Source of the DNA: Methylomarinum sp. Ch1-1
GTDB taxonomy: Bacteria > Pseudomonadota > Gammaproteobacteria > Methylococcales > Methylomonadaceae
NCBI RefSeq assembly: GCF_030717995.2
Contig: NZ_CP157743.1
Span: forward strand, 1,984,001 to 2,048,000
Length of the DNA: 64,000 bases
Reading direction: 5' to 3'
The position numbers and the translations under genes were made by a program. This document shows, in pieces, positions 4,892 to 26,416 of this stretch. Position 1 is the first letter of the stretch; the number at the start of each line of letters is the position of its first letter. Below the pieces are notes generated by a model. The model worked only from the letters and a program-made list of their open reading frames with translations, did no database searches and had not been told where the DNA came from.

Positions 4892-5044
4892 CCGCTAGCG
4901 ATGTCCTATCTCTCGCGGCACTTGCACTTCCCTGTGCGGCGGCCGCTAGCGATGTCCTATCTCTCGCGGCACTTGCACTTCCCTGTGCGGCGGCCGCTAG
5001 CGATGTCCTATCTCACGAGGCACTTGCACTTCCCTGTGCGGCGT
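4892..5044. repeat. Three tandem copies of a 51-bp repeat
   Basis: The unit starts CCGCTAGCGATGTCCTATCT and recurs at 4892, 4943 and 4994 with a period of exactly 51 bp; the third copy carries two changes (CTCACGAGG for CTCTCGCGG). The copies are contiguous, without spacers. Part of the unit (GCACTTGCACTTCC) also occurs in the family B copy at 12.44 kb. Just upstream, at about 4851-4882, lies a doubled TTAAAAAAGGGGACAG motif. Confidence 0.9.
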
Positions 5045-5163
5045 AAGGGCTGATTGCAGCATCTGACCTTGGTCAGAACAAAAATCGGCCATGCCGCGCA
5101 CACTTCTTCCAGAGCTGCCTGATACCATATTTGCACCTACATTCATAATTGCCGGCAGAATAA

Positions 5164-5925: not shown

Positions 5926-7230
5926 ATGCAAGTTTCTGTCGAAAAGACATCAGAATTAAGCCGCAAGATGACTGTCAGCATACCTGAAGAAGTCGTTCAG
6001 GAAAAAATGGAAGTGCGTTTTAAGTCATTGGCGCGTGAAGTTAAACTTGATGGCTTTCGTCCTGGCAAAGTACCGCTCAATGTGATTAAGAAAAAATTTG
6101 CCGACCGGGTCAGAGGCGAAGTGTCCGGTGATCTGATTCAAAGCACGTACTTCGAGGCTCTGCAACAACAGGACTTGATTCCGGCCGGTCATCCGCATAT
6201 TCATCCGGCCGATAATTCAGAAGGCTTTGAATATGTCGCGGAATTCGAAGTGTATCCGGAAATTTCGCTGGATGTCGTCGATCAGTTGGAAATCACCCGG
6301 ACTTCGTCGACGGTTGAAGAGGCTGATCTGGATCAGATGATAGACAAGTTGCGTGAGCAGAAAAAAGACTGGAATGCCGTTGAGCGAGCTTCCCAGGAAA
6401 ATGATCGCGTTACAATTCATTTTTCTGGTGTCTGTGACGGTGAGAACTTTACCGATGGGAAAGTCGAGAACTACCAGGTAGTTATTGGCGGCAAGCAGAT
6501 GATTTCGGGGTTTGAAGAGGAATTGGTGGGCTTGGAGGCAGGCGCCAGCAAGACCTTTGACATTACCTTCCCGGAACAGTACGGTAATGATAAGCTGGCG
6601 GGCAAGCAGGCTCAGTTTGAAATCGAGGTGATCAAAGTCGAAGAGCCGGTACTGCCGGAAGTGAATGCCGATTTCATCAAAGCTTACGGCATTGAAGACG
6701 GTGAAATGAGCTCGTTCCGTGACGATGTCAAAACTAACATGGAAAGAGAACTGGAGCAGGCGTTAAAAGGCAAGCTGAAAAATGCCGTGATGGATGCGAT
6801 CTATCAAAACATCACCGTCACCACGCCCAAGGCCTTGGTTGACCAGGAAATTCAGCAGCTGATGCAGCCCTATGCAGAAAATGCCAAAAAGCAGAACTTG
6901 AAGCTGGAAGACCTGGATCTGCCGAGGGATGCCTTCGAAGAACAGGCCAAGCGCCGCGTCGCGTTGGGTTTGATTTTGGGAGAAATTATCCAGAAAAATG
7001 AAATCAAGGTCGATAACGAAAAGGTTAGGGAGACCATTGAAAACATGGCCAACAGCTATGAAAAACCGGAAGACGTGATCAACTGGTATTATGCCGATGA
7101 CAGCCGCTTGGACGACGTCAGACAAATTGTTCTGGAAGATCAAGCCGTTGAATGGGTGGTCAATAAAGCGAAGCTGTCCGATGAAACGGTCAAATTTGAT
7201 GAAGTAATGAGCGGTCAACACCAACATTAA
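5926..7230 (+). CDS. tig: Trigger factor
   Basis: Ribosome-bound chaperone and peptidyl-prolyl isomerase that shields nascent chains at the exit tunnel. The protein has 434 residues, the usual family length. The N-terminal ribosome-binding domain contains the signature GFRPGKVPLNVIKKKF at about residues 44-59. The FKBP-like PPIase domain spans about 150-240 (ENDRVTIHFSGVCDGENF, IGGKQMISGFEEELVG), and the helical chaperone domain fills the C-terminus. TTGAGGTAAAGT before the ATG is a good ribosome site. clpP starts 15 bp after the stop, the classic tig-clpP-clpX(-lon-hupB) order found in many proteobacteria. Confidence 0.98.
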   Translation: MQVSVEKTSELSRKMTVSIPEEVVQEKMEVRFKSLAREVKLDGFRPGKVPLNVIKKKFADRVRGEVSGDLIQSTYFEALQQQDLIPAGHPHIHPADNSEGFEYVAEFEVYPEISLDVVDQLEITRTSSTVEEADLDQMIDKLREQKKDWNAVERASQENDRVTIHFSGVCDGENFTDGKVENYQVVIGGKQMISGFEEELVGLEAGASKTFDITFPEQYGNDKLAGKQAQFEIEVIKVEEPVLPEVNADFIKAYGIEDGEMSSFRDDVKTNMERELEQALKGKLKNAVMDAIYQNITVTTPKALVDQEIQQLMQPYAENAKKQNLKLEDLDLPRDAFEEQAKRRVALGLILGEIIQKNEIKVDNEKVRETIENMANSYEKPEDVINWYYADDSRLDDVRQIVLEDQAVEWVVNKAKLSDETVKFDEVMSGQHQH

Positions 7231-7245
7231 TGAAGGGTTATAAGT

Positions 7246-7884
7246 ATGTTTAATAATCAGAATGGAACGGAGCAAATAATCTCGCCTCAGGCGGCCGGTG
7301 GTCTGGTGCCTATGGTTATTGAGCAGACTGCCCGTGGTGAGCGTTCTTTCGATATTTATTCGAGGTTGTTGAAGGAGCGGGTCATCTTCCTGGTCGGCCA
7401 GGTCGAGGATTATATGGCGAATCTGGTGGTCGCCCAGCTATTGTTTTTGGAGTCTGAGAACCCGGACAAGGATATCCATTTATATATCAACTCACCCGGC
7501 GGTTCGGTGACTGCGGGGATGGCGATTTACGACACCATGCAGTTTGTCAAAGCCGATGTCAGTACGATGTGTATCGGCCAGGCCGCCAGCATGGGCGCCT
7601 TGTTATTGGCCGGAGGCGAGGCCGGCAAGCGTTATTGTTTGCCGCATTCCAGGGTGATGATTCATCAACCGCTCGGTGGGTTTCAAGGGCAGGCCTCCGA
7701 TATCGATATTCATGCCAGGGAAATTTTGTCGATCAGGGAAAAATTGAATAAGGTGTTGGCCCGTCATACCGGGCAGAATCTGGAGAAGATCCGTCAGGAC
7801 ACCGATAGGGACAACTTCCTGAGCGCCTATGACGCTGCTGAATATGGTTTGATCGACCAAGTGCTGACCCATCGTAGCGTTTAA
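7246..7884 (+). CDS. clpP: ATP-dependent Clp protease proteolytic subunit
   Basis: Serine peptidase that forms the double-heptamer chamber used by ClpX. Length is 212 residues. The catalytic triad is visible: Ser115 in [11 protein letters not shown], His140 in [11 protein letters not shown] and Asp189 in DTDRDNF, each offset by four from the E. coli residues. The N-terminal ~14 residues before [16 protein letters not shown] are probably a propeptide removed by self-processing. The gene has a ribosome site AAGGG nine bases before the ATG, lies 15 bp after tig and 92 bp before clpX. Confidence 0.98.
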
Positions 7885-12266: not shown

Positions 12267-12535
12267 GTAACTATTCAGCGTCTTTCAGGATTTAGGCGGC
12301 AGGTCATTGAATTCTCGGGACGCGTTCACCCAGCGCCTAAATACCCTAGGTTATTGGCTATGATTAATAATCTTCGTTATTAGATGCTGGGTGAATACTT
12401 CCCTGGCAGCTAACAGCATTCTTCTTCACGCTGCACTTGCACTTCCTTGGCGGTCAGAGCAAAAATCCGCCTGTTGCAGACAGCCTGATAAATCAATAAC
12501 CTACTTCCTCTGATAAAAGTACGCTGGATAATTAC
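12267..12535. mobile_element. Family B element with internal palindrome module
   Basis: The ends GTAACTATTCAG and CTGGATAATTAC are inverted repeats, and similarity extends inward about 50 bp (GGCAGGTCATTGA and its counterpart). The flanks GCCGATTG and GTCGATTT match at 6 of 8 positions, consistent with an aged 8-bp duplication. Compared with the 157-bp copies at 23.9 and 34.7 kb, this one carries extra DNA including a palindrome with arms TTCACCCAGCGCCTAAATA and TTAGATGCTGGGTGAA, the same hairpin module that is central to family A. Confidence 0.75.
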
Positions 12536-13544: not shown

Positions 13545-15407
13545 ATGCTACAAAAGATTAGAGATAAATCGCAGGGCGTATTCGCATGGGTCATTCTGAT
13601 ACTCATCTGTGTCCCTTTTGCATTATGGGGTATTCAGAATTATCTGGGAGGCGGCAAAGAGGCGCCAATTGCATCGGTAGGCGATAAAGAATTTTATCAA
13701 CAGGATCTCAGCAGAGCGTATTCGCAATATGCCCAGAATCTGGCCGGCATGAACTTTGACGAAGAAGTCATCAAGCAGCAAGCCTTCAATAAACTGATTC
13801 GTGACGAAGTGTTGCATCAGCATGTCCGCGATGAAGGCTTGGTGGTCACCGACCAGACGGCCAGGGATTTTATCAAAAGTCTGGATTATTTTCAGACCGA
13901 CGGCAAGTTCGATAAGCAGCAGTACAAGGCTTTGTTAGGTTCTCAGCGCATGTCGTCGGCGGAGTTTGTTGATCGCATCAAAAAGGCCTTGGTGATGGAG
14001 CAGTATCAAAAAGCCATTACCGACAGCAGCTTCGTCACCCAGGGCGATATCGACCGTTTTTTTGCGATCCAAAATCAAACTCGGGATATCGCTTATCTCA
14101 GCGTGCCGTTAAAAGATGTCACGGAACAGCCAAGCGCAGCAGAGATCGAGGCTTATTATCAACAACATCAAGCGGCCTATCGGACGGAAGAGCAGGTTGC
14201 CATTGCTTATCTGGAATTGTCTTTGGACAAGCTGGCCGCGGACATCGACGCCAGTGAAGAGCAGTTAAAAAGCTATTACCAAGAACGGAAAGACCTCTAT
14301 ACCACTAAAGAGCGTCGAAGAATCAGTCACATGCTGTTTGCCTTTGCTGACGATGCTGACGACGAGGAGACGCTGCAACGGGCCTTAAAAGCCAAACAGC
14401 GGCTGCAGAGCACCGATTTTGCGACGCTGGCCGCAGAAGTGTCTGACGACAAGTTAACCGCTAAAAAAGGCGGAGACCTGGGCTTGTTCAATGTCGGCGT
14501 CATGGAGAAGGCGTTTGAAGAGGCCGCCACCAGCCTGGAGCTAGGCGAGGTTTCGGAGCCGGTGAAGTCGGAATTCGGTTATCACCTGATCAAGGTCACC
14601 GAATTGGTTCCCGGCGAAGTAAAACCCTATGACAGCGTAAAAACCGAAATCGCTAAGGCCTATAAAAAAGCGCAGGCGGAAACTCGTTTCTATGAACTGG
14701 GGGAAACGCTGGCGGAAGTTAGCTATGAGAACCCTGGCAGTCTGCAGGCGGCTTCGGAAGCACTGGGTCTAACCATTCAGAAAACCGGACTGTTTAGCCG
14801 TAATGCCGGGGAAGGCGTGGCGGAACAGGAGGCGGTTCGTAATGCCGCGTTTTCCGAAGAGGTTCTGAAAGGCAATAACAGCGAGCCCGTCGAAATCGGT
14901 ACCGACAAGTTGATCGTGTTGAGAATGCTGGAACACAAGCCGGCAACGGTTAAAGAGCAGGACGAAATCAAACCGGCCATTATCACCGCGATACAGGCGG
15001 AAAAGGCCAGAGAGCAAGCCAAAGAGAAAGCGGCGGAAATCAAGAGCGCGCTATTGGACGGACAGTCGATGGCCGAGGTCGCCGAAACATATCGCTTGAA
15101 AGTCAATACTATTGAAGATTTGAAGCGTAACAGCAAGAAATTAAGCTGGCCGGTGACACAGGCTGTGTTCAAGGCCGCCAAACCCATGGCCAATAAGCCT
15201 ACTGTCATTGTAGCCGCCGATCCGGATGGCTCACAAAATGTCGTCAGCATCACCGCGGTGACGGAAGGCGAGATGAGTGAAAGCGACAAACAAAAGCAGC
15301 AGTTGGCCGAGAAAAATATTGCCAATGCTTTCGGTCAGAACACATTCAACGCGGTGCTGTCGAACTTGGAAGCCAAGGCGGATATTTCCATTCGCCCCGA
15401 AAAATAA
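13545..15407 (+). CDS. ppiD: PpiD-type periplasmic chaperone / peptidyl-prolyl isomerase
   Basis: A 620-residue inner-membrane-anchored foldase. The N-terminus MLQKIRDKSQGVFAWVILIL is the PpiD signature: a short cytoplasmic stretch and one membrane helix, after which the protein lies in the periplasm. A SurA-like N-terminal domain covers about 40-190, and a parvulin domain about 250-360 (RRISHMLFAF, KKGGDLGLF, FGYHLIKVTE). Charged helices fill the C-terminus. It acts near the Sec exit on newly exported proteins. It is transcribed alone after the tRNA terminator; the lon-hupB-ppiD order is conserved in gammaproteobacteria. Confidence 0.95.
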   Translation: MLQKIRDKSQGVFAWVILILICVPFALWGIQNYLGGGKEAPIASVGDKEFYQQDLSRAYSQYAQNLAGMNFDEEVIKQQAFNKLIRDEVLHQHVRDEGLVVTDQTARDFIKSLDYFQTDGKFDKQQYKALLGSQRMSSAEFVDRIKKALVMEQYQKAITDSSFVTQGDIDRFFAIQNQTRDIAYLSVPLKDVTEQPSAAEIEAYYQQHQAAYRTEEQVAIAYLELSLDKLAADIDASEEQLKSYYQERKDLYTTKERRRISHMLFAFADDADDEETLQRALKAKQRLQSTDFATLAAEVSDDKLTAKKGGDLGLFNVGVMEKAFEEAATSLELGEVSEPVKSEFGYHLIKVTELVPGEVKPYDSVKTEIAKAYKKAQAETRFYELGETLAEVSYENPGSLQAASEALGLTIQKTGLFSRNAGEGVAEQEAVRNAAFSEEVLKGNNSEPVEIGTDKLIVLRMLEHKPATVKEQDEIKPAIITAIQAEKAREQAKEKAAEIKSALLDGQSMAEVAETYRLKVNTIEDLKRNSKKLSWPVTQAVFKAAKPMANKPTVIVAADPDGSQNVVSITAVTEGEMSESDKQKQQLAEKNIANAFGQNTFNAVLSNLEAKADISIRPEK

Positions 15408-15760: not shown

Positions 15761-15832
15761 GTAATTATTCAGCGTATTTTATCAGAGGGAGTAGATTATT
15801 GATTTATCGGGCTGTCTTGCACAGCAATTCCC
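15761..15832. repeat. Family B end fragment abutting a family A element
   Basis: GTAATTATTCAGCG followed by TATCAGAGGGAGTAG and GATTTATCGGGCTGTC is one end of family B. It stops where the A copy begins and no opposite B end is found after it. Upstream, 15408-15760 contains a run of nine C residues (15437-15445) opposite a GGGGGAGGG stretch but no gene that I can support. Confidence 0.65.
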
Positions 15833-16055
15833 ACTTTGGCGTTCAAAAAGGGCATGAGGTGTGTTTGGCGAGGATGTCGGCAGCCAGGATGCTGCCGTCA
15901 AGCCCCCAGGGATGGGTTTACCCAGCACCTAAATTCCATGGCTACTGGAGTATATTTTACATTCCAGGATAATTTAGGTGCTGGGTGAACGGCGCTCCTC
16001 GACAGACACACCCCATGCCCTAAACACAGCAAAAATGTTCAAACTGGGAATTGCT
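15833..16055. mobile_element. Family A element, copy 3
   Basis: The copy begins AGCAATTCCCA and ends TGGGAATTGCT, in the opposite orientation to the copy at 5.2 kb, with the palindrome arms CCCAGCACCTAAATT and AATTTAGGTGCTGGG in the middle. No target duplication is visible, in line with the truncated B fragment on its left, which suggests a rearranged junction. Confidence 0.8.
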
Positions 16056-16200
16056 TGAGTGCGGCATCCATGCCGCGCACACTTCTTCCAGAGCTACCTG
16101 TACCGTCTTAACCCGAACTCAGGGTAGACACGGCAAAAATTGCTGGCGCCTACCGAGTATCCGTCATATACAATATGACTGAGTGCTAGTACGGCAGCAT
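16056..16200. repeat. Family E repeat end
   Basis: This carries segments shared with 5.1 kb (CATGCCGCGCACACTTCTTC) and, as the reverse complement, with 9.25 and 30.5 kb (GCTGGCGCCTACCGAGTA, ATATGACTGAGTGCTAGTAC). It is read as one end of the E family, with CTAGTAC as terminal bases. Confidence 0.6.
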
Positions 16201-21698: not shown

Positions 21699-23108
21699 TC
21701 AGCCATTCAGCATCAAGTGAGTGTAAATACTAAAAAGATAACCCAAGGCTATGGCGGGAAACCATTTTAAATGGACCAAGAAGGTATAGGAATTTCTTGC
21801 TTGTCCCATCAGTGCGACGCCGGCAGCGGAACCGATCGATAACAGACTGCCGCCAACGCCGGCGGTCAAGGTGACCAATAGCCACTGGTTTTCGGGCATT
21901 GCCGGATTCATTGTCAATACGGCGAACATGATCGGAATATTGTCGATGATGGCCGATAATAATCCGACCATTATGTTTGCCGTGGTCGCGCCCAGTTCAT
22001 CGTACATGAATGCCGATATATCGCTTAAATAGCCGATGAATCCAATTCCGCCGACTGACATGATGACGCCATAAAAGAAGAACAGCGTGTCCCACTCGGA
22101 TTTGGCAATGTGGCTGAAGACATCGAAGGCGCTGCCGGAAGGCTCCGACCCCGGAATCATGTCAAAAGAAGCCCTTTCTTGTCTGAATTTGAGGCGTAAG
22201 TAATAACCGAACATCTTCAAATAACCTAGGCCCATCAGCATGCCGAAAGCGGCGGGAATGTGCAGGAACTGATGAAACAAGATAGAAGTGGCTATGGTGG
22301 CCAGGAACAACAAGACTATGATGATCCCGCCATGTTTAATGGCCGCATCTTCTTCTTCGGGCAGTTCGGGATGACCCTTAGGCAAATAAAAATGCATCAA
22401 CGCGGCCGGCACGAGGAAATTGACTATGGCGGGGATGAATAACTTGAAGAAAGTCGAAAATTCTATGATGCCTTTTTGCCAAACCATCAAGGTCGTGATG
22501 TCGCCAAAGGGACTGAATGCACCGCCGGCATTGGCGGCGACGACGATATTGACACAGGAAATCGCGGTAAAATCGGGTTGCGACGACCCGACTGTTAATA
22601 CCACGGTACACATAATCAGGGCGGCGGTTAAATTATCGGCGACCGGTGAGATCATGAAAGCCATCGCTCCGGTCAGCCAAAAAAGCTGCCGATAACTGAA
22701 GTTTTTGGAAACCAGTTTATAATGCAGCGCCTCGAAAACCCCGCGCTCTATCATCGCGCTTATATAGGTCATCGCAACCATCAAGAAAAAAAACAGTTCC
22801 GAATATTCCAGAAAATGATGCTTCAGCGCTTTGTTGGCGGTTTCGCTGATATCATGTTGCGCGTAGATGAAGGCAATAATCGCCCAGATCAACCCGGCGG
22901 CGACCAAAACGGGTTTGGACTTGTGCAGGTGCAGTTTTTCTTCTAAAAATACCAGGATATAGGCGATGGAAAAAATGCCTAATACTAAGTAACCGGAAAA
23001 ATGCGTGGTCAGATCTAATCTATGTTGAGCGATTTCGGCGCCAGACGCCGACAGGGAAAATAGCAGCAATGAATTCAGCGAGAGTATTTGGAAAGTTGTT
23101 GTACGCAT
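21699..23108 (-). CDS. nhaD: NhaD-type Na+/H+ antiporter
   Basis: A 469-residue inner-membrane antiporter of the ArsB/NhaD superfamily, expelling Na+ (or Li+) in exchange for H+. A likely signal or first helix (residues 3-25) precedes about 12 further helices. Family-typical segments include FFFLVAMTYISAMIERGVFEAL, SPVADNLTAALIMCTVVL, NAGGAFSPFGDITTLMVWQKG, DNIPIMFAVLTMNP and AGVGGSLLSIGSAAGVALMGQ. It stands alone between repeat-filled spacers and is oriented like the N-ATPase operon upstream of it. It fits Na+ or alkaline adaptation. Confidence 0.93.
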   Translation of the reverse strand: MRTTTFQILSLNSLLLFSLSASGAEIAQHRLDLTTHFSGYLVLGIFSIAYILVFLEEKLHLHKSKPVLVAAGLIWAIIAFIYAQHDISETANKALKHHFLEYSELFFFLMVAMTYISAMIERGVFEALHYKLVSKNFSYRQLFWLTGAMAFMISPVADNLTAALIMCTVVLTVGSSQPDFTAISCVNIVVAANAGGAFSPFGDITTLMVWQKGIIEFSTFFKLFIPAIVNFLVPAALMHFYLPKGHPELPEEEDAAIKHGGIIIVLLFLATIATSILFHQFLHIPAAFGMLMGLGYLKMFGYYLRLKFRQERASFDMIPGSEPSGSAFDVFSHIAKSEWDTLFFFYGVIMSVGGIGFIGYLSDISAFMYDELGATTANIMVGLLSAIIDNIPIMFAVLTMNPAMPENQWLLVTLTAGVGGSLLSIGSAAGVALMGQARNSYTFLVHLKWFPAIALGYLFSIYTHLMLNG

Positions 23109-23391
23109 GATTGTTGCAGTTGACTCAGAACCGGGAAAGATGGTCGATGAGAATGGCTGCCTTACCCCGTTTTAAGAATGTTCGGAAATTTTAAAACTTT
23201 AAGGCTATTCTAGCGTTTGAACCTTGCAACAACCTTTCAGCATGGTTTCTTTAGCGTAACATTGTCGAATCAAGCCGAAAGAGCCCGCAATTCCCATGTC
23301 ATCAGTTTGGAGTTCAAAAAGGGCATGGGGTGTGTTTGGCGAGGATGTCGGCAGCAAGGATGCGGCCGTCAAGCCCCCAAGGGATGGGGCT

Positions 23392-23785
23392 CAGGGCTAC
23401 CTCATTAAATGAATGAGTGGCAAAACAGAATTTAACGACAAATACGCCTAAAGTAAGTTAAACGTTTAGGGTGTGTTAAATACCCCGCCTCGCGTGCACG
23501 GCCAATTTTGCCCCGGTGGCGGTTTTTGGCGGCTTGCTTCGCGAAGCCGCCCTACGATGCGGTAGGGTGTGCTGACGATAGGAAGCGCACCGGTTTTTGA
23601 TGCGCTTCACGCTGTTCAACATCCGAATGCGAAATGCAGGTCAACGAGGTCCTGAACGATTCAACCGTGACTAGCCTAGAGTAAGTTAAACGTTCGGGGC
23701 GGGTGAAATAACCCGCCCCGCCCAGAGGGATGATGCGATATTAACCAATGTGTTGGTTCAGGTACTTTTTAATGAGGGAACCCTG
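23392..23785. mobile_element. Family C element, 394 bp, with 10-bp TSD
   Basis: The left end CAGGGCTACCTCATTAAA and the complement of the right end, CAGGGTTCCCTCATTAAA, match at 16 of 18 positions. The flanks GGATGGGGCT (23382-23391) and GGATGGGTCT (23786-23795) are a 10-bp duplication with one change. Inside are two ~45-bp direct repeats beginning AGTAAGTTAAACGTT (about 23450 and 23683) and the palindromic repeat D at 23569-23632. The CAGGG terminus and 8-10 bp duplication resemble the ISAs1 family, but no transposase is encoded. Confidence 0.85.
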
Positions 23786-23905
23786 GGATGGGTCTACCCA
23801 GCACCTAAATTCCATGGCTACTGGACTATATTTTACATTACAGGATAATTTAGGTGCTGGGTGAACGGCGCTCCTCGACAGACACCCCCATGCCCTAAAC
23901 GCAGC

Positions 23906-24063
23906 GTAACTATTCAGTATCTTTCGGGTTTTAGGCAGTAGGTCATTGATTTCTCAGGACGCGTGAATACTTCCATGTAAGCTCTGACTGCAACGTCCTG
24001 TTGCAGACAGCCCGATAAATCAATAACCTACTCCCTCTTAGTAAAACTACGCTGAATAATTAC
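23906..24063. mobile_element. Family B element, 158 bp, with perfect 8-bp TSD
   Basis: It begins GTAACTATTCAG and ends CTGAATAATTAC, flanked by AACGCAGC at 23898-23905 and 24064-24071. It is inserted inside the family A element and is about 95% identical to the copy at 34747. The two ends are imperfect inverted repeats for ~50 bp. Confidence 0.92.
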
Positions 24064-24101
24064 AACGCAGCAAAAATGGCCAAACTGATGGGAATTGCGG
24101 C

Positions 24102-24920
24102 TTACTGGGAAGGGGGTTGCGCATTCAACAATATGACTTCGATTTCTTCGGTTATTTCCTCCTGGCGGTAAATTTGGCTGATTTTGCTCAATCGTGCCGT
24201 TTCTTCGTCTAGATGATTGACCGCATTATCCAGATGTTGCAGGCGTTGATTATTTTCCGCGGCATAAGATGCGTACAGCACATCTTGCAGTGAGCTGAAT
24301 AAATAATGATCTACCAGTTCAAAGAGAAACTGGGGCGGCTGTAAATTGAGCAGCGGTTCAATTCGATGTTCGGAATGTCGCTCCGCGGTCGCCGGAGGCA
24401 ATAAGGGGCGTTGGATGATGCCGGCATGTTCACCGTGATGATATAGGGCCGAAAGCTTGCAGAGCGTTTGTTGATAGCGTAGCTCGCCTAGGGCGTCGAT
24501 CAATTGGCTTAGCACTTCCTTGATTTCATCGCCGCCGTTAGCTCCCGGAACGGCGCTGAAGGAAATCTGAGCCTGATTCAGGCAATTGCACAGACGATTG
24601 CCGATGGCAATGATCTGGCTGGGCGACAACTCCGTTAACTGTTCGATCAGGCTTTCATTAAAGTTGCCGCAGAAACCCCTTTCGGAACCGACCACGATGA
24701 CGATAGACGGGCTGTTCGCATCGACCTTAGGTAAACCGGGATAAAACTGCAGGAAGTCGGCCATCACCGTTTCGATATGGCGGACGACCCGGTCTTGCGC
24801 CTGTTGATATTGGCTGAGTTTGTGGATTTCCATGAAAGCCATGTTTCTCAGCGAATGCAGAATGCTGCGTATGTCCTTCAGTTGCTCGATATGCAATTGC
24901 AGGGTGCGGCTTTGCGTCAT
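24102..24920 (-). CDS. atpG: N-ATPase gamma subunit
   Basis: Central rotor stalk of the second F-type ATPase; 272 residues. It resembles gamma in its long N- and C-terminal helices ([24 protein letters not shown] at the start, [25 protein letters not shown] near the end) and the [18 protein letters not shown] core strand, where Gly-x-x-Cys-Gly-x-x-Asn is typical of the family. It is the last gene of the operon and overlaps atpA by 4 bp. A nested repeat follows right after the stop. Sequence divergence from housekeeping gamma is as expected for N-ATPases. Confidence 0.9.
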
Positions 24921-26416
24921 GATGCATCATCCTCGTTAGGAGTCAAAACATCGGCTAGAAATCTGCGCCATTGCTCTAAGTCGCTGTTTAATGACAACAC
25001 CGACTCGTCCACCGCAATTTGCAGGCGTTCCATTTGTTCGTCGATCTGAGACGGCTTCAGCGGATCGAACAAACCGTTGTTGTAGGCGATCAACCAGGCT
25101 AATTGAAAGGCGCTGCTAGCCGGCATCAGGCGGTCTTGTTTCAAGATTTCCCGCAACAGCCGTCCGCGTTTGATTTTGGCTTCCATCGACGCTTCCAGTT
25201 TTTGCCCGAAACGGGAGAAATTTTCCAGCTCCAAAAATTGCAAATAATCCAGCTTCATTCTATCCGCTTGATCGCGTATCGCCGTATGTTGAGCCTTGCC
25301 GCCGATTCTGGAAACCGACTTGCTGATGTCGATGGCCGGACGAAAGCCGCTGACAAACAGATTGCTATCCAGATAAACCTGGCCGTCGGTAATCGAAATC
25401 AGGTTGGTGGGAATATAAGCGGCGATTTCTCCCTGTTGGGTCTCGACGATCGGCAGGGCGGTCATGCTGCCGCCGCCATGCGCGGCATTCAACTGGGTGG
25501 AACGCTCCAGCAACCGGGAATGAACGAAGAAGATATCGCCGGGAAAGGCCTCTCGGCCTGGCGGCCGACGCAGCAGTAATGATAGTTCGCGGTAAGTCTT
25601 GGCGTGGGTCGCCAGATCGTCGTAAACAATCAAGGTGTCATGGCCTTGTTTCATCCAATAATCGGCGATCGCGCAGCCGGCGAATGGCGCGATATATTGC
25701 AAGCCGGGCAGGGCGCTCGCTTCGGCGACGACGCAAACGGTGTAATCCAGTGCGCCATGACGGTGCAAGGTGTCGATGGTATTGACGACGGTGGTGCGTT
25801 TTTGTCCGATCAGCACATAGACGCACAACACGTTTTTGTCCTTTTGATTGATCACGGTGTCGATGGCCAAGGAACTGCGGCCGGTGCTTTCGTCGCCGAT
25901 CAGCAACTGACGTTGTCCTTTGCCCAGCGGAATCATCGAGTCGATGATTTTGATGCCGGTGTATAACGGTTTGTGGACAAACTCGCGGGCGATGATAGGC
26001 GGAGAAGGCTGTTCCAGATTGCCGCGAACCACATGAGAGGGACGGCTTAATCCGTCCAGTGGTTCGCCGAGCGGATCGATCACCCGTCCCAAAAAGCTGT
26101 CTCCGACCGGCACGCTGAGACTGTAACGGGCTAAGTAGACCAGCGTGCCGGCGGTCAGCGCTTCGGTTTCATATAGCAGCACGGCGCCGATCTGCTCGCG
26201 GTTAAGGTCGAATACTATCGCGCGACTGCCATCGGCAAAGATCAGGATGTCATCAATCGCCGCCGACGGTAAGCCTTTGATCCAGCAGATGCCGTCGCCG
26301 ATCGAGACCACGATGCCTTGTTCGGCGACGCGTAAGCCGGGTTGGTAGTTCTCCAGCCATTCCTGCTGTCTTTGCAACAGCTTGCTGTCAGCGTACCAAT
26401 CGGCCTCAGAAATCAC
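24917..26416 (-). CDS. atpA: N-ATPase alpha subunit
   Basis: A 499-residue F1 alpha subunit providing the non-catalytic nucleotide sites. Typical blocks: [75 protein letters not shown] and [15 protein letters not shown]. Walker A is GDESTGRS (residues 174-181), with Arg180 where nearly all alpha and beta subunits have Lys; the other blocks are intact. The start is GTG with GGAG seven bases upstream, overlapping atpF by 11 bp. The N-terminus is short compared with standard alpha. Confidence 0.94.

Follow-up and report, generated by a model that had tools for sequence, protein, structure and literature searches.

A nest of short mobile elements between an ATPase gene and nhaD in Methylomarinum sp. 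Ch1-1, and a hairpin found in several element families

In the non-coding DNA that separates two minus-strand genes, nhaD and that for an ATPase gamma subunit, one pair of inverted repeats encloses a block of more than 800 bp. The question that this locus raises is whether the block is a single mobile element or several, and, if several, in which order they came together. A preliminary description had taken it for an element of one family, A, into which elements of two further families, B and C, had inserted separately. We followed this up in the window (the whole stretch of 64,000 nucleotides analysed, C2:1984001-2048000 of a 4.77-Mb genome in three contigs), elsewhere in the same genome and in related genomes. 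The block is very probably a nest of MITEs, in which at least two later insertions have entered an older MITE.

Structure of the block and its surroundings

The features of the locus are given in Table 1. The A termini, CGCAATTCCCA and TGGGAATTGCG, were located by direct reading and by repeat and motif finding at 23286-23296 and 24089-24099, and form part of a perfect 13-bp inverted repeat, CCGCAATTCCCAT, that spans 23285-24100. The termini had been recognised at the outset, but the 813 bp that they were said to enclose is in truth 814 bp, ending at 24099 and not at 24098. No open reading frame of 100 aa or more lies inside the element.

Table 1. Features of the block and the flanking genes, in window coordinates
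Feature	Position	Strand	Remarks
NhaD-type Na+/H+ antiporter (flanking gene)	21699..23108	-	
Family A MITE, outer element, 816 bp including insertions	23285..24100	+	13-bp perfect terminal inverted repeat
Left copy of the 10-bp duplication of C, GGATGGGGCT	23382..23391	+	
Family C MITE, 394 bp	23392..23785	+	ISAs1-like ends CAGGGCTACCTCATTAAA / CAGGGTTCCCTCATTAAA; internal palindromic repeats
Inner part of C (C 107-239)	23498..23630	+	palindromes found outside C too
Right copy of the duplication of C, GGATGGGTCT	23786..23795	+	
D hairpin module, 69 bp, absent from A-short	23798..23866	+	stem arms 23796-23811 / 23847-23862
Left copy of the 8-bp duplication of B, AACGCAGC	23898..23905	+	
Family B MITE, 158 bp, D-free form	23906..24063	+	ends GTAACTATTCAG...CTGAATAATTAC
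Right copy of the 8-bp duplication of B, AACGCAGC	24064..24071	+	
F1-type ATPase gamma subunit (flanking gene)	24102..24920	-	A end one base from stop codon

Both inner elements are bounded as first described: C lies between 10-bp flanks that agree in nine positions, the left copy being off by one base (consensus GGATGGGKCT), and the 8-bp flanks of B are identical. If equal base frequencies are assumed, the chance of such flank matches is about 3e-5 for C and 1.5e-5 for B. Other A copies run uninterrupted across both insertion points. With C and B taken out, one duplication copy being kept for each, the remaining A aligns with a copy elsewhere (L261) at 93.8% identity over positions 19-244 of 246, the first ~15-18 bp at its left end staying unaligned with most of the best-matching copies. 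The expectation that removal of both insertions would restore an A of normal layout is borne out by this alignment, except that the 'normal' 235-bp A is itself compound, consisting of a shorter A and a hairpin shared with other families (see below).

No target duplication flanks the outer A (best flank match 4/10); we infer that this particular copy arrived by transposition, with D already in place. Recombination between two A copies would also account for an A without a duplication, and elements that appear chimeric at D do exist in the genome. We nevertheless think it unlikely that A came here by this route. First, a Methylococcaceae contig (L113) keeps the gamma gene and nhaD in matching order without any element between them, which argues that the two flanks belong together. 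Second, absence of a duplication is common, 12 of 33 paired-termini rows of A in the genome sample described below being without a clear one.

The same contig bears on the proposal that relatives should be searched for an unoccupied locus. It is the only one among the nhaD loci searched in which the gamma gene adjoins, but its 114-bp gap cannot be aligned with the focal locus, and it therefore represents a locus without elements and not an exact empty site. A DNA search of five same-genus genomes yielded no intact flank pair: four were without the pair, and in G005 the nhaD match (2.51 Mb) and the gamma match (3.74 Mb) are far apart. The end of the gamma protein agrees with that of its G005 relative to within a few residues, and among the best 80 of 572 relatives of the flanking NhaD, the nearest, at 77% or less, are those of Methylococcales-type methanotrophs. 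Rfam gave no match with E up to 1 in 23000-24400, and promoter and terminator scans of 22900-24300 each gave one site, below the respective shuffled means of 1.9 and 1.8.

Separately from the question of the block, F1-type ATPase gamma and alpha genes (24102-26416) here adjoin a gene for an NhaD Na+/H+ antiporter. The top NCBIfam model for the gamma subunit is of the alternate F1F0 type, with a score under the model cut-off. A sodium function linking the ATPase genes and nhaD would be only a guess.

Families A, B and C elsewhere in the genome and their candidate transposases

Copies of the three families elsewhere provide the evidence for mobility that the outer A itself withholds. The genome has 243 exact occurrences of the terminal 12-mer of A, CAGCAATTCCCA, of which 126 are in forward and 117 in reverse orientation, and none of the same 12-mer read backwards. 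We further examined a sample of 864 kb, made up of the window and 40 nearly evenly spaced stretches of 20 kb, and called a duplication where the sequences at paired termini matched at 85% or better. For A, duplications mostly of 9 bp and sometimes of 10 bp accompany 21 of the 33 paired-termini rows, which represent 31 distinct right ends; B-type ends have 8-bp duplications in 20 of 31 cases. C is represented in this sample alone by four copies, two with duplications, and among 16 distinct copies from the sample and other loci of this genome, most of them fetched by likeness to the query, ten have 10-bp duplications matching in nine positions or better. These duplications identify A, B and C as MITEs that have moved, in agreement with the earlier proposal that three short families without transposase have been mobile in this genome. 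All three are short (A 166 or 235 bp, B 158 bp, C 394 bp), lack a transposase gene and have terminal inverted repeats, dispersed copies and target duplications.

C is variable in structure: the copies compared range from 393 to 755 bp with a varying number of internal palindromes, one (in L015) contains an A, and the focal C agrees with other copies at 95-98% over its first 219-239 bp but at just 78.7% over its full length. Parts of C also recur outside C in tandem arrays. In L231, units of 163 bp and 146 bp that carry C-internal palindromes are arrayed at 6987-7585 and 14156-14609.

If A, B and C carry no transposase, what has moved them? Mobilisation in trans by transposases that recognise the respective ends is the mechanism that we infer, and for A a candidate partner is present in the genome. 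This is an IS of 1.41 kb with matching 12-bp ends and a 433-aa DDE transposase (PF01609, 25.2 bits against a cut-off of 23; no NCBIfam model above its own cut-off). It has six copies (L031, L290-L294), five of 1409-1410 bp and one of 2264 bp, flanked by 9- or 10-bp duplications, and two full-length transposase frames are 100% identical. blastn aligns A with this IS solely over the last 19 bp of A on the right (17/19); on the left the two have the 12 bp in common. Relatives of the transposase, all below 60% identity, occur in 15 of 72,556 plasmid records, the best being from Calothrix (51.5% over 97%) and one being annotated 'ISNCY family'; the A element itself has no match in these records.

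For C, the 10-bp duplication and the ends point to an ISAs1-type transposase, on a comparison with a single IS, L048. This IS holds the one match above cut-off to the ISAs1-associated domain in the genome, its transposase scores 419.4 bits against NF033564 (ISAs1; cut-off 70), and it is inserted in an A-short copy with a perfect 10-bp duplication, GTGTGTTTGG. L048 and C share the duplication length and ends that begin CAGGGC, but the ends agree only partly (14/19 by eye) and blastn finds no match between the two elements at E 0.01.

IS66 elements make 8-bp duplications and have ends that begin GTAA. B has both traits, but a search of 24 PF03050 matches with ~1.5 kb to either side, and of the other sequence examined, gave neither an IS66-type element with B's ends nor any other partner for B. 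Two kinds of candidate were rejected. In L084, B 1-30 and B 22-158 lie at the two ends of a stretch of 1872 bp that might be taken for an autonomous parent of B, but the intervening sequence is a 1706-bp IS66-type IS nested in B (L084 483-2188; C2, ~729.7-731.4 kb), with ends GTAACTTCTCAA and an 8-bp duplication of its own, GGTTTTAG. The candidates L060 and L063 turned out to be PF01609 ISs that had entered the termini of B/E-type elements, E being a third MITE family treated below. The IS in these two loci is ~1.56 kb long, and two of its five copies, which are 99% or more alike, lie in B/E-type terminal repeats, apparently at TATTCAGT both times; a target preference for MITE ends is possible.

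Order of insertion and frequency of nesting

Sequential insertion, with A first and B and C entering it independently, is the best reading of the locus. The relative chronology put forward in the preliminary description holds here by virtue of the nesting, and identities to the best-matching other copy fit it (A 93.8%, B 99.4%, the first 239 bp of C 97%). The order is a local one, since A also occurs as the inserted element, in a copy of C (L232) and in the D hairpin of a B-type remnant (L217). A long-form A, made up of a 166-bp A and a 69-bp D, would thus have come to lie behind the gamma stop codon and before nhaD, its duplication either lost since or never formed; C would then have inserted with a 10-bp duplication and B with an 8-bp duplication, in either order. 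Each family would have been moved by a transposase recognising its ends, A by the 1.41-kb PF01609 DDE IS, C by an ISAs1-type transposase and B by one not found here.

Two insertions in one A copy might suggest that A elements are preferred landing pads, into which B and C are targeted. A further A with a B in it (L003) has its insertion just 8 bp from the focal one on the A sequence, with a duplication of its own (ATGCCCTA/ATGGCCTA), and the ISAs1 element L048 also sits in an A copy. The frequency of nesting in the genome does not support targeting, however. Nested cases make up 5 of 43 bounded insertions (11.6%), against 15.0% expected from the share of non-coding DNA that such repeats occupy (23,916 of 159,212 bases). 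In this sample estimate coding sequence was crudely delimited by greedy ORFs of at least 100 aa, the inserted copies themselves count towards the masked share, and the focal block, from which the question arose, supplies two of the five nested cases. Moreover, only three of the five are in A, two of these in the focal copy: B in A (window and L227), C in A (window), A in C (L232) and A in D of a B-type remnant (L217). Since repeats fill about 15% of the non-coding DNA, their landing in one another needs no targeting, and we regard targeting as improbable; nesting follows simply from that share.

That the 816-bp block is a single composite element moving as a unit, as its intact A termini might suggest, is very improbable indeed, given that it has no outer duplication, that A, B and C each match separately in many places, that the B in L003 occupies a different A site (which also shows that B entered A copies more than once), and that among 40 scored of 574 candidates this locus alone spans the block, so that the larger unit whose presence elsewhere would have contradicted the nest did not appear.

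The sequential nest is in itself of a known kind, as MITEs and the insertion of one into another have been published. MITEPsy1 of Pseudomonas syringae is described as inserted in copies of the IS ISPsy17 (PMC3189936), and a figure legend places another MITE within one copy of the BrickBuilt MITE of Porphyromonas gingivalis (PMC4596501). The families described here are, like MITEPsy1 as presented there, short and gene-less, with terminal inverted repeats, duplications and inferred mobilisation in trans (PMC3189936); the differences from that account are that three families share one nest, that A ends number in the hundreds and that a hairpin is common to several families. C resembles BrickBuilt in its internal repeat units and variable length, but the BrickBuilt units are 23-nt tandem repeats, whereas those of C are longer palindromes that also occur outside C, and the available text on BrickBuilt describes no hairpin common to MITE families (PMC4596501). 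The locus thus offers a clean MITE-in-MITE example with a readable order.

The D hairpin

A more interesting aspect of the nest than its order is the D module within A, which the preliminary description had missed. A occurs in two main forms, of ~166 and ~235 bp, that differ by the 69-bp D, so the longer form is a compound. The same difference separates B of 157 bp from B of 226 bp, and, in E, a third MITE family with B-like ends, copies of 165 bp from copies of 234 bp. D occupies corresponding GT sites in the three families, each of which exists with and without it. In aligned copies the empty site reads CGC(C)-GT-RAA (GTGGA in one E copy), and in the filled site D stands between two GTs; in the window, D is accordingly flanked on both sides by AC (GT on the other strand). 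As single-stranded DNA, 23793-23865 of the window folds with a z of -5.66, which 0 of 200 shuffles reached.

Exact 14-bp D stems form 178 hairpins in the genome, compared with none for the reversed control, and the stem is present in 9 of the 237 genomes of the family searched, the present one included. Two hairpins are found in G005, between 6 and 127 in all six genomes of a second genus, and 11 in one genome of a third genus. A locus from the second genus (L287) has a B with D at what by eye is the same point and with a perfect 8-bp duplication.

REP and REPIN palindromes, together with repeats tagged GTAG or CGTC, are the natural comparison group (PMC3733652, PMC3116915). D is like them a short palindrome with a conserved stem, a high copy number and no gene, but with a stem of 14 bp or more and a loop of ~37 bases it exceeds the stems of 5-13 bp and loops of 2-20 bp in Table 1 of PMC3733652. 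The flanks of D are CGC(C)-GT-RAA in most aligned copies of A, B and E, with no GTAG by eye; GACG(C) stands on one side of B and E, and the CGTC layout in the available text of PMC3733652, which mentions CGTC repeats without a dedicated transposase, is not clearly matched. We rejected a RAYT origin of D for lack of association: no exact D stem lies within ~1.5 kb of 15 Y1 transposase matches, near which about two hairpins would be expected from density alone by our own arithmetic. One decayed D-like pair lies near a Y1 match, in L275.

How, then, did one hairpin come to occupy a matching point in different families? One answer is that D was original to A and was precisely excised to give A-short, its likeness in B and E reflecting an old shared core. 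To either side of the D point the cores of A and B show a weak, co-linear likeness (score 25, reached by 0 of 500 shuffles; for A and E, 15 of 500), a flanking pair of GT would permit precise loss, and D is found only in apparent repeat contexts. This account falls a little short of an even chance, and it meets difficulty in the loops. We examined 74 distinct D sites in sequence of this genome, allowing up to two mismatches in each stem, and counted loops at sites anchored on both sides, which the orientation of a loop demands since A is nearly palindromic; one site may count twice. On this basis the loops in A contexts are of class i (19), iv (4) and E (1), those in B contexts of class iii (3), iv (1 forward and 2 reversed) and E (1), and those in E contexts of class E (1 forward and 7 reversed) and i (2). 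Several families thus have loop classes in common, and loops of either orientation are found in B and E contexts. Neither the presence of class iv in both A (4) and B (3) nor the two orientations would result from simple inheritance.

These observations lead us to suggest, tentatively, that D may be a hairpin cassette capable of independent movement or exchange, which enters or is swapped into the GT within CGC(C)GTRAA in the cores of A, B, E and perhaps further MITEs, is amplified with the MITE, flips its loop and acts as a crossover point for family halves. Because the cores are weakly alike, part of the sharing may stem from an old shared core and recombination instead of repeated insertion of D. 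The flanks of D were assigned to different families at seven sites (four of the 46 sampled sites and three of the 28 at other loci), a tentative count of chimeras, as some family assignments may be wrong where cores are weakly alike. In only one of the seven (L223, 7843), which lacks a duplication, are the A end and the B/E end both intact; in the six other putative chimeras a single end can be recognised, or none, or none where it would be expected. At 2 of the 46 sampled sites neither flank was assigned to A, B or E, and by eye the flanks resemble further repeats.

If D is such a cassette, the mobile pieces of the nest would be of four kinds, the one A carrying D as well as B and C, and a D that moves or is exchanged alone would be a palindrome without genes for which other MITEs serve as carriers and by which they are reshuffled. 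In searches of a largely non-subscription literature on MITEs, nesting, REP/RAYT hairpins and methanotroph repeats, which could not call such a hairpin by name, we met neither these repeats nor a hairpin shared and exchanged between MITE families. We regard the hairpin common to several MITE families, with and without forms side by side, as the part that is unusual and worth testing; paired empty and filled D sites make its mobility testable.

Other repeats in the window may be recorded here. A B with the D hairpin and further inserted sequence occupies 12267-12535 (269 bp, duplication 6/8). At 15761-16056, a fragment of B (B 100-158) and a 235-bp A without a clear duplication are 4 bp apart. 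Finally, a tandem repeat of ~51 bp (GGCGGCCGCTAGCGATGTCCTATCTC...) was seen by eye at 4905-5045, and a like unit is arrayed at L231 15871-16004.
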